The position numbers and the translations under genes were made by a program. From assembly GCA_018710835.1 (NCBI GenBank), contig DVJC01000022.1, positions 1 to 34,449 on the forward strand: a stretch of 34,449 nt of DNA. The letters are read 5' to 3'. Shown piece after piece: positions 16,572 through 18,301 of this stretch. The number at the start of each line of letters is the position of its first letter. The stretch's first letter is position 1. The notes beneath the pieces were generated by a model, which ran no database searches, had not been told where the DNA came from, and was given only the letters and a program-made list of their open reading frames with translations. The DNA comes from Candidatus Limadaptatus stercoravium. GTDB lineage: Bacteria > Bacillota > Clostridia > Christensenellales > CAG-917.

Positions 16572-17093
16572 ATGGCAAAGAAAGTTCAATCTACGGTCAG
16601 CGTGAAGGACAACAGCGTCATGCTGTGCCTGCTGTTCATCGTGCTCGGCGTGCTGCTGGTGTGGAAAGAGAATGCGATCGTTGACATCGCAATGATGACA
16701 ATCGGCGTGATCGCCACGGTGCTCGGTCTTTTCGAACTCTTCCATCAGAACTGGATCATGGGAGTGATCGAAGTGATTGTAGGCGTGGCTCTGATTCTGA
16801 TCGCGGCACTTGCGTCGGATATCGTCGTGCTGATCCTCGGCATCGCGATCCTGTTGTTTGCGGTGCTTGTGTGCGTCATGGGCATCAAGAGTTTCAAAGG
16901 CATGGCGGCAGCGTCCAAAGTGCTGTTTATACTGACCATCGTGCTTGCGCTCGTGGTCGGTATCCTTCTCATCGTCGCATACGCGACCGGCGGAGAGTCC
17001 GCGCTCTACATTGCCACCGGCGCGATCAGCCTTGCCGTCGGCGTGGTGATGTTGGTGAAGGCGGCGCTCACCAGCGGCAGAAAAGCCGTCTAA
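16572..17093 (+). CDS. multi-pass membrane protein, DUF308/HdeD-like
   Basis: Repeated hydrophobic helices from MAKKVQSTVSVKDNSVMLCLLFIVLGVLLVWKENAIVDIAMMTIGVIATVLGLFELF; GAGGTGATC RBS region upstream. Confidence 0.65.
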   Translation: MAKKVQSTVSVKDNSVMLCLLFIVLGVLLVWKENAIVDIAMMTIGVIATVLGLFELFHQNWIMGVIEVIVGVALILIAALASDIVVLILGIAILLFAVLVCVMGIKSFKGMAAASKVLFILTIVLALVVGILLIVAYATGGESALYIATGAISLAVGVVMLVKAALTSGRKAV

Positions 17094-17122
17094 AACCGCG
17101 CTATTTGGCGTGATACTGCGTC

Positions 17123-17185
17123 AAAGCCCCTTCCGCAATGCGGTCACGTACGACTTAGTACACTCCCTTTTGCGGAAGGGGTTTT
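17123..17185. repeat. Stem-loop element 1 with conserved loop motif GTCACGTACGACTTAGTACACTCC
   Basis: Arms AAAGCCCCTTCCGCAA (17123-17138) and TTGCGGAAGGGGTTTT (17170-17185); loop motif 17143-17166. Confidence 0.8.
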
Positions 17186-17199
17186 CCTTGTCTGACGCT

Positions 17200-17215
17200 C
17201 AAATATCGCGGTTTT
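17200..17215. repeat. Short repeat CAAATATCGCGGTTTT, copy 1
   Basis: Identical 16-mer at 17502-17517. Confidence 0.75.
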
Positions 17216-17242
17216 ACGAACGACAGTTAAATAATCCGGGGT

Positions 17243-17276
17243 CCCCGCGGAAAATCCGTAAGGATTTTTCGTGGGG
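17243..17276. repeat. GGGGTCCCC-frame hairpin, copy a
   Basis: CCCCGCGGAAAATCC-GTAA-GGATTTTTCGTGGGG, preceded by CGGGGT. Confidence 0.85.
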
Positions 17277-17289
17277 TATAAACCGGGGT

Positions 17290-17315
17290 CCCCGCAAAAT
17301 GAACATTTTGTGGGG
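17290..17315. repeat. GGGGTCCCC-frame hairpin, copy b
   Basis: CCCCGCAAAATG-AA-CATTTTGTGGGG, preceded by CGGGGT, followed by ATAAA. Confidence 0.85.
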
Positions 17316-17329
17316 TATAAATCCGGGGT

Positions 17330-17363
17330 CCCCGCAACAATTTCCGTAGGAAATTTTGTGGGG
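17330..17363. repeat. GGGGTCCCC-frame hairpin, copy c
   Basis: CCCCGCAACAATTTCC-GTA-GGAAATTTTGTGGGG, preceded by CGGGGT. Confidence 0.85.
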
Positions 17364-17385
17364 TAGATTGGCGAATTGCTTTGTC

Positions 17386-17450
17386 AAGCGCCTGCGGTCT
17401 GAACAGTCACGTACGGTTTAGTACGCTCCTGTCCATCCGCAGGCGCTTTT
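17386..17450. repeat. Stem-loop element 2 with conserved loop motif GTCACGTACGGTTTAGTACGCTCC
   Basis: Arms AAGCGCCTGCGG (17386-17397) and CCGCAGGCGCTT (17437-17448); loop motif 17406-17429 matches element 1 at 21/24 positions while stems differ. Confidence 0.8.
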
Positions 17451-17463
17451 CGCGTCTTGGGGC

Positions 17464-17489
17464 CCCCACCGAAAGCATTTTCGGTGGGG
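17464..17489. repeat. GGGG-frame hairpin, copy d
   Basis: CCCCACCGAAA-GCAT-TTTCGGTGGGG. Confidence 0.8.
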
Positions 17490-17501
17490 CAAAACTTCAT
17501 C

Positions 17502-17517
17502 CAAATATCGCGGTTTT
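17502..17517. repeat. Short repeat CAAATATCGCGGTTTT, copy 2
   Basis: Identical 16-mer at 17200-17215. Confidence 0.75.
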
Positions 17518-17608
17518 TACACACGCTCGGTCGAAGACGGAATAAAAGCCTTTTGTCTTAACGCTCATTTATTCGAAGACGGAGCTACGCGCCGCTCAGC
17601 CAAAGGAG

Positions 17609-17640
17609 CCCCACAAAAATTCAAAGACTTTTTGTGGGGA
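17609..17640. repeat. GGGG-frame hairpin, inverted copy e
   Basis: CCCCACAAAAA...CTTTTTGTGGGGACCCCGG; on the reverse strand it reads CCGGGGTCCCCACAAAAAG... Confidence 0.8.
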
Positions 17641-17646
17641 CCCCGG

Positions 17647-17680
17647 ACTTGCACAGGCGGTGTAACCGCCTCTTGCAAGT
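17647..17680. repeat. Two-part nested hairpin with GTA loop
   Basis: ACTTGCA-c-AGGCGGT-GTA-ACCGCCT-ct-TGCAAGT. Confidence 0.7.
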
Positions 17681-17695
17681 CGCGGCGCGCAAAGT

Positions 17696-17801
17696 GAGTG
17701 CCGAACCGAAGGTCCAGCGATTGTTACGTGCGTTGCGCGTCAATCGCGTCGCACTAGACGTAACACTAAGTAGGCACGGGCGTAAATGTGCGAGTGCCGA
17801 A
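17696..17801. repeat. Structured segment flanked by 10-bp direct repeats GAGTGCCGAA
   Basis: GAGTGCCGAA at 17696-17705 and 17792-17801; internal GCGATTG/CAATCGC and TTACGT/ACGTAA pairings interleave. Confidence 0.55.
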
Positions 17802-17812
17802 TTCCTCCCCTC

Positions 17813-17844
17813 GGGGTCCCCGCCGAAAGTATTTTCGGCGGGGT
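17813..17844. repeat. GGGGTCCCC-frame hairpin, copy f
   Basis: GGGGTCCCCGCCGAAA-GTAT-TTTCGGCGGGGT, near-identical to the copy at 78-109. Confidence 0.85.
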
Positions 17845-18029
17845 GAATCGTGCAGGGATTTCAGTCAGTACCGTTCTCCACTTAATTATATAAGCGCGAT
17901 ATTAAAAGTTTTTGTAGAGGGAAAAAGTTAGTCCCGCATTTTGGGAGTGCGGTAGCTTATTCTGCACGGGGGAGGAAAGCCCGTAGGGAAGGCGGGGGTA
18001 ACAACATTCCCCACGGGACGCGAAGTAAT

Positions 18030-18113
18030 ATTTTCGCGACGCGCAGAGTGAGAGGAAGGCATAAATGCAAGAAACCCACGGTGATACCGTGGGTTTTGAG
18101 CGAAAATTGCCTT
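18030..18113. repeat. 84-bp repeat, copy 1, contains terminator-like hairpin
   Basis: ATTTTCGCGACGCGCAGAGTGAGAGGAAGGCATAAATGCAAGAAACCCACGGTGATACCGTGGGTTTTGAGCGAAAATTGCCTT; 81/84 identical to copy 2. Confidence 0.95.
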
Positions 18114-18217
18114 GCGGAAAGCAGCGGCGGCGGAAGCCGCCTCCGCGGAGCAAAAATGAGTGAACGAGCGATAGTTTTGCAGCGGAGCGAAAAACGAGGA
18201 GAGAGTGAACGTCCTGC

Positions 18218-18301
18218 ATTTTCGCGACGCGCAGAGTGAGAGGAAGGCATAAGTGCAAAAAACCCACGGTGATACCGTGGGTTTTGAGCGAAAAGTGCCT
18301 T
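18218..18301. repeat. 84-bp repeat, copy 2, contains the galT terminator
   Basis: Direct repeat of 18030-18113. Confidence 0.95.
18257..18285 (-). terminator. Intrinsic terminator of galT
   Basis: AACCCACGGT-GAT-ACCGTGGGTT stem; T6 on the minus strand after the stem. Confidence 0.75.

Follow-up and report, generated by a model that had tools for sequence, protein, structure and literature searches.

The attC sites of integrons lie directly after the stop codon of a gene, and combine variable stems with conserved elements and retained mismatches. REP sequences with RAYT are, on the other hand, palindromes of 20-40 nt that carry a GTAG or CGTC tag (PMC3733652), and like BIMEs and REPINs they are dispersed between genes, frequently close to gene 3' ends, are present in tens to hundreds of copies and may be mobile (PMC3733652, PMC3116915, PMC2817692). 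Palindromic and mostly terminator-like candidate structured RNAs have also been described from human microbiomes (PMC8040213).

The DNA analysed here (the window) is a stretch of 34,449 nucleotides from Candidatus Limadaptatus stercoravium (contig DVJC01000022.1), in which the original prediction, made from the sequence alone, pointed to two stem-loops with a conserved 24-nt loop and unrelated stems. The two loops are the tips of a larger element of ~125 nt, built as a nested hairpin. The family of this element is large, structured, anchored to stop codons and previously unnamed, and its structure, its placement and its exchange between gene ends are strongly supported. The element resembles REP, BIME and REPIN sequences in its dispersal, copy number, frequent position near gene 3' ends and possible mobility, but it has four nested helices in ~125 nt instead of 20-40 nt, lacks a short hairpin tagged with GTAG or CGTC, is not tied to RAYT and has its base built on the stop codon. 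With intrinsic (Rho-independent) terminators it shares the 3' position, an A-tract, a GC-rich stem (P2) and, in many copies, a T-run, whereas its conserved core and boxes, the second helix around the terminator-like part and a T-run that is not kept in diverged copies set it apart. The element is thus somewhat like a REP sequence or an elaborate terminator, without fully qualifying as either. It also resembles the candidate RNAs of PMC8040213, which are palindromic, mostly terminator-like and from gut bacteria; the main text of that paper, to which the comparison extends, does not describe such a motif, and an overlap with its supplementary tables is possible. Dozens of unrelated housekeeping genes in a large group of mostly uncultured gut bacteria share this folded end with the stop codon in its base, which would mean either an undescribed way of finishing genes or mRNAs, or a mobile element whose exact habitat is the stop codon. 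Because closely related species exchange it rapidly, nature itself offers an experiment on the movement of structured repeats with their pairing kept.

Anatomy of the element and its two copies in the window

The features of the window are collected in Table 1. The gene upstream of the first copy matches Pfam DUF308 with an E-value of 8.8e-05, below the curated cut-off. The two cores are identical at 21 of 24 positions, with no match expected in shuffled sequences, and the arms around them are fully complementary (12/12) in both copies, being CCCCTTCCGCAA/TTGCGGAAGGGG in the first and AAGCGCCTGCGG/CCGCAGGCGCTT in the second, as had been predicted. The predicted inner CGTAC-N6-GTAC(G) hairpin is also present, its outermost pair in copy 1 being C.A (GTACA). 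The observation is thus confirmed; most of the element had been missed, including the outer helix at the stop codon (17092-17108 / 17199-17216 in copy 1). Copy 2 is without its outer P1 5' arm, which has been lost or replaced, and an inserted hairpin breaks up its 3' side; its 3' arm at 17501-17517 can pair with the gene-end arm at 17092-17108 (inverted repeat I7). The RNA fold of 17088-17219 has an energy of -61.9 kcal/mol (z = -8.3 versus shuffles), and an equally good fold is obtained from the complementary strand (z = -9.1).

Table 1. Positions of the upstream gene and of the parts of both element copies in the window
Feature	Positions	Strand	Basis or remark
Upstream gene	16572-17093	+	173 aa ORF; stop TAA 17091-17093; weak DUF308 similarity
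Element copy 1, complete	17088-17219	+	covariance model R1, 110.7 bits, E 6e-27
Copy 1 P1 5' arm, begins at stop TAA 17091-17093	17091-17108	+	inverted repeat I6; fold; stop-codon tests
Copy 1 P1b 5' arm	17110-17116	+	A1 and pair counts
Copy 1 5' box TGCGTCA	17117-17123	+	near-invariant A1 columns
Copy 1 P2 5' arm	17123-17138	+	inverted repeat I12
Copy 1 core with P3 (17147-17151 / 17158-17162)	17143-17166	+	core match; P3 pairing
Copy 1 P2 3' arm, then T-run	17170-17185	+	inverted repeat I12
Copy 1 3' box TTTCCTTG	17183-17190	+	A1
Copy 1 P1b 3' arm	17190-17196	+	A1 and pair counts
Copy 1 P1 3' arm, ends TTTTA, complement of the gene's TAA region	17199-17216	+	I6, fold, stop test
Element copy 2, disrupted	17351-17517	+	R1 match 17351-17476, 65 bits, E 6.3e-15
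Copy 2 P1b 5' arm and box TTTGTCA	17370-17386	+	sequence compared with A1
Copy 2 P2 5' arm	17386-17397	+	inverted repeat I17
Copy 2 core	17406-17429	+	core match
Copy 2 P2 3' arm, then box TTTCGCG	17437-17448	+	inverted repeat I17
Hairpin of second repeat family inside 3' side of copy 2	17458-17490	+	repeat family D2; sequence

An alignment of 40 copies (A1), which includes copy 1 of the window and is the basis of the covariance model R1, gives the order of the parts as P1, P1b, the 5' box, P2, the core with a small helix P3, the 3' box and the returning arms. P1 is the basal helix of 17 bp, and P1b has seven pairs with a retained pyrimidine mismatch. The 5' box, formed by near-invariant columns, reads either TTTGTCA or TGYGTCA, and the 3' box either TTTCGCG or TTTCCTTG; TGYGTCA goes with TTTCCTTG, and TTTGTCA with TTTCGCG.

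Across copies the sequence of the core and of the inner boxes is conserved, whereas that of the helices varies with the pairing retained. In A1, 89.6% of the pair cells hold standard pairs versus 35-47% when the partner is slid, two-sided changes occur at 34 of the 41 pairs, and double-changed cells number 333 versus 93 in shuffles. As A1 was chosen partly for the presence of the P1 helix, the P1 pairing in it is not independent, whereas P2 and P3 were no selection criterion. In 149 more diverged copies, which were fitted by the model and so lean towards the structure, 83% of the cells are paired versus 32-45% in the controls. P3 is paired in 99.7% of its cells there, being almost invariant with some two-sided changes. 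The loop that flanks P3 covaries as a module: TCA occurs with CTC 133 times and TTA with CGC 22 times, but TTA with CTC only three times. This strong covariation, in A1 and in the diverged copies alike, bears out the selection on structure that had been proposed, and the original interpretation is supported by the analysis.

The original prediction had recognised no named family, and a search of Rfam 15 agrees with it, returning no match in the window and nothing meaningful up to an E-value of 10 in 16900-18300; a literature search found no description of the motif. That the copies are ordinary intrinsic terminators, alike by chance or through local duplication, would fit their position at gene ends, the A-tract and T-run that flank P2, the terminator-like match inside copy 1 and the plain terminator found after one ortholog (see below). 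However, a 24-nt core, two boxes and a fixed distance between core and stop codon are needless for termination, no core match is expected by chance, and the conservation of the core across genera also disfavours this explanation, which we consider very improbable.

Other repeats lie close to the element. A second family of ~33-46 nt, made of GGGGTCCCCGC...AAAAT...ATTTT...GCGGGG hairpins, is seen in the window at 17233-17365, 17458-17490, 17609-17645 and 17812-17844, and also at L002, L003, L012 and L015; some of its copies sit inside the P2 arm of an element or between the arms. A direct repeat of 84 nt (18030-18113 and 18218-18301, 96% identical) contains a AAACCCACGGT/ACCGTGGGTTT hairpin, and CGCCGCTCAGCCAAACTTGCACAG..GCGGCGCG and GGGGGAGGAAAGCCCGTAGGGAAGG sequences mark an intergenic repeat of larger size, which is found at ~17520-18110 of the window and at L242-L256, and recurs downstream of elements in several species.

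The base of the element and the stop codon

Usually, the stop codon of a protein-coding gene marks the start of the element's base. We looked for stops of same-strand reading frames of at least 75 codons around the first copies in the fetched DNA, and 72% of the 166 copies have one 40-62 nt upstream of the core, most often at 50-52 nt, versus 6.0% at random nearby positions and 6.6% on the opposite strand. When another core lies just upstream, 13% of the copies have a stop at that distance. The commonest start of P1 is the stop codon or the base that precedes it; several sites in two relatives (G029 and G033) start 20-30 nt past the stop with CCGA, not with a stop codon.

Furthermore, the 3' arm of many elements is complementary to the very stop codon used by the gene. 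With the P1 register set from the bases after the stop only, the stop codon itself being left out, the P1 3' arm complements the gene's own stop fully in 34 of 70 copies (17 TAA, 14 TGA and three TAG), with a single cross-match between TAA and TGA, and the remaining copies fail to match all three bases. Over the last sense codon the pairing fades, to 0.47, 0.41 and 0.40 at positions -1, -2 and -3, versus 0.26-0.28 when shuffled. The genes upstream are varied and of ordinary housekeeping kind, with 132 Pfam families among 91 proteins, e.g. FtsZ, argininosuccinate synthase, Fe-hydrogenase, HPr kinase and UPRTase. A dedicated class of upstream genes was considered and rejected, as none dominates, the largest being the ABC/SMC-type ATPases (8 of 91).

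Spread of the element and exchange between gene ends

Further genomic copies, for which the original prediction had proposed a search, are numerous both in the own genome and in relatives. The 1.31-Mb assembly of the own genome (96 contigs, ~80% complete) has 23 core matches with at most three mismatches, versus none for a reversed control pattern, and a relative (G029) has 24 copies in 397 kb, or ~60 per Mb. In the family, the strict core pattern is found in 17 of 43 genomes and covariance-model matches (E <= 1e-3) in 32 of 43, with up to at least 74 copies per genome, from 79 scored candidates per genome at most; in the order, the model is positive in 77 of 248 genomes and 32 of 115 genera. 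The named records with a core include Borkfalkia, Gallimonas, Coproplasma and Scatosoma, and the carriers are presumably Borkfalkiaceae-type Clostridia, a family name that we take from those of the genera. A few core-bearing records are labelled Alphaproteobacteria, Alistipes, Lysobacterales or Streptomyces, and may be misbinned, chance or true matches; box-like sequences are seen at L107 and L108. Outside the order, model matches that score below ~55 bits may come from other kinds of long hairpin, and among the low-scoring ones inspected, L258 and L259 have a recognisable core and boxes, while L260 has not. Carriage by phages was rejected, as no viral contig searched contained the core. In a genome of the G014 type, tandem arrays of the element with a spacing of ~100-130 nt occur at L097, L103 and L159, and several contigs stop within or next to a copy, which suggests that these repeats break the assembly.

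Ten genomes of the genus were searched for the gene upstream of copy 1, and nine of them, the own genome counted, have an ortholog. After the stop codon of the ortholog, four relatives (G027, G029, G033 and G032) also carry the element, with a different P1 and P2, and another (G031) has a plain terminator without the element at the same place. For the gene ends of G029 there are 16 matching places in the close species G033, and in the 13 measurable pairs the coding ends are 76-96% identical. In 11 of these 13 orthologous pairs the elements are only 62-81% identical, which is no closer than random pairs (mean 73%); in the other two they are 95% and 98% identical. Within one genome, conversely, P2-core bodies that are 94-100% identical are found in P1 helices of down to 47% identity that are still paired. 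Some counterparts keep only the 5' half with a simple hairpin, several 3' halves, apparently of older elements, stand in a row downstream of one site (L250), and at another locus (L254) the stop codon changes together with the element variant. A count of lone 3' halves by a loose pattern proved to be noise for the most part and was discarded. No pair of a filled and an empty site with clean junctions was found among the orthologous loci compared.

The socket formed by P1 hence differs from gene to gene, and the near-identical bodies in different sockets, together with the differing variants at orthologous ends, show that bodies are copied between gene ends, by insertion, replacement or ectopic conversion. 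The prediction that stems vary with pairing retained holds in this light; slow compensatory change is not the sole route, given the bodies in different P1 sockets and the variants at orthologous ends.

Two known kinds of mobile DNA have to be weighed here. An attC-like site, i.e. a single-stranded DNA hairpin that a tyrosine recombinase recombines and that is placed after genes as in integron cassettes, would agree with the position after the stop codon, the variable stems with kept mismatches and conserved unpaired features, and the tandem copies. However, the conserved part of the element is at its tip and that of attC at its base, where the attC core motifs RYYYAAC or GTTRRRY occur in none of 97 copies; the integron integrase (TIGR02249) is above cut-off in none of 43 genomes, its weaker matches being general tyrosine recombinases; and here it is the element that changes next to a gene that keeps its place, opposite to what happens when cassettes are exchanged. 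Membership among integron attC sites is largely refuted, and we regard such an origin as improbable.

A selfish DNA palindrome of the REP or MITE type is a genuine, if doubtful, possibility. The folded single DNA strand would then be the substrate of a putative transposase or recombinase, insertion at gene ends would be harmless, and the stop codon would be carried in the terminal inverted repeat. The change of stop codon with the variant at L254, the high copy number, the near-identical bodies at different loci, the swapped variants and stacked 3' halves, the weak excess of G-U pairs (see below) and the folding of both strands all speak for it. P1 is a terminal inverted repeat as in a MITE, but one that changes with the gene. 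Yet a transposase is blind to stop codons, and the placement is exact and one-stranded; a clean pair of filled and empty sites was not found among the loci compared, nor was a partner enzyme among the candidates considered. RAYT was rejected as such a partner: matches to Y1_Tnp seemed to track copy number in the genus, but four high-copy genomes (G005, G002, G030 and G035) are without one, G005 and G002 having ~70 copies each. We dropped the link because of these genomes and because the RAYT-like genes carry palindromes of their own (GGGGACGGG), not the element, which leaves the REP-like character originally proposed as a loose analogy. Every one of the RAYT-like Y1 transposase genes at L175, L176, L177, L179 and L180 has a palindrome of the GGGGACGGGG(C) type on its flanks; together with this palindrome, which recurs elsewhere in the genomes, they look like a separate REP/RAYT system. 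An RVT_1 retroelement was likewise rejected, with no match in G000, G027, G029, G032, G033, G002, G005 and G016, so that it is absent in most carriers.

Probable form and function

In our best reading, to which we give a probability of about one half, the element is a new structural element of gene 3' ends, either mobile or converting, and the form under selection would be the sense-strand RNA at the 3' end of the mRNA. An RNA form is supported by the sense orientation, by the inclusion of the stop codon in a helix, by the covariation of the internal loop, and by the A-tract and T-run on either side of P2, and we lean to RNA over DNA by about 3 to 2. The wobble cells number 51 G-U versus 23 A-C in 80 copies, and 25 versus 21 in A1; this weak excess is less than expected from selection on the sense RNA only, and like the equally good folding of both strands it speaks against an RNA form. 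The low count of imperfect pairs could be explained by recent copying.

If the sense RNA is the selected form, the hairpin made of A-tract, P2 and U-run may end transcription or block 3' exonucleases in many copies, and a host factor may recognise the core and the boxes, as the conservation of both suggests. P1 could close only without a terminating ribosome, because its 17 bp from the stop codon correspond roughly to the stretch that a ribosome covers downstream. A further-reaching and rather unlikely possibility is a system of two layers, in which a P1 socket, specific to the gene and built on its stop codon, would receive an exchangeable body of P2 and core that is copied from gene to gene by a host process, and in which the folded RNA would read whether a ribosome is terminating and decide, at many genes, what becomes of the 3' end of the mRNA.

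A T-run of at least four follows P2 in 56 of 97 copies, and is often missing from the more diverged copies outside the genus, which argues against termination as a general function. Hybrids of the 5' half of the element and a terminator-like hairpin, e.g. CCCCCGTCTTCGGACGGGGG, were also observed at L243, L253, L256, L257, L222:18807, L225:2236 and L237:6737, in forms that have neither the core nor the P1 3' arm.
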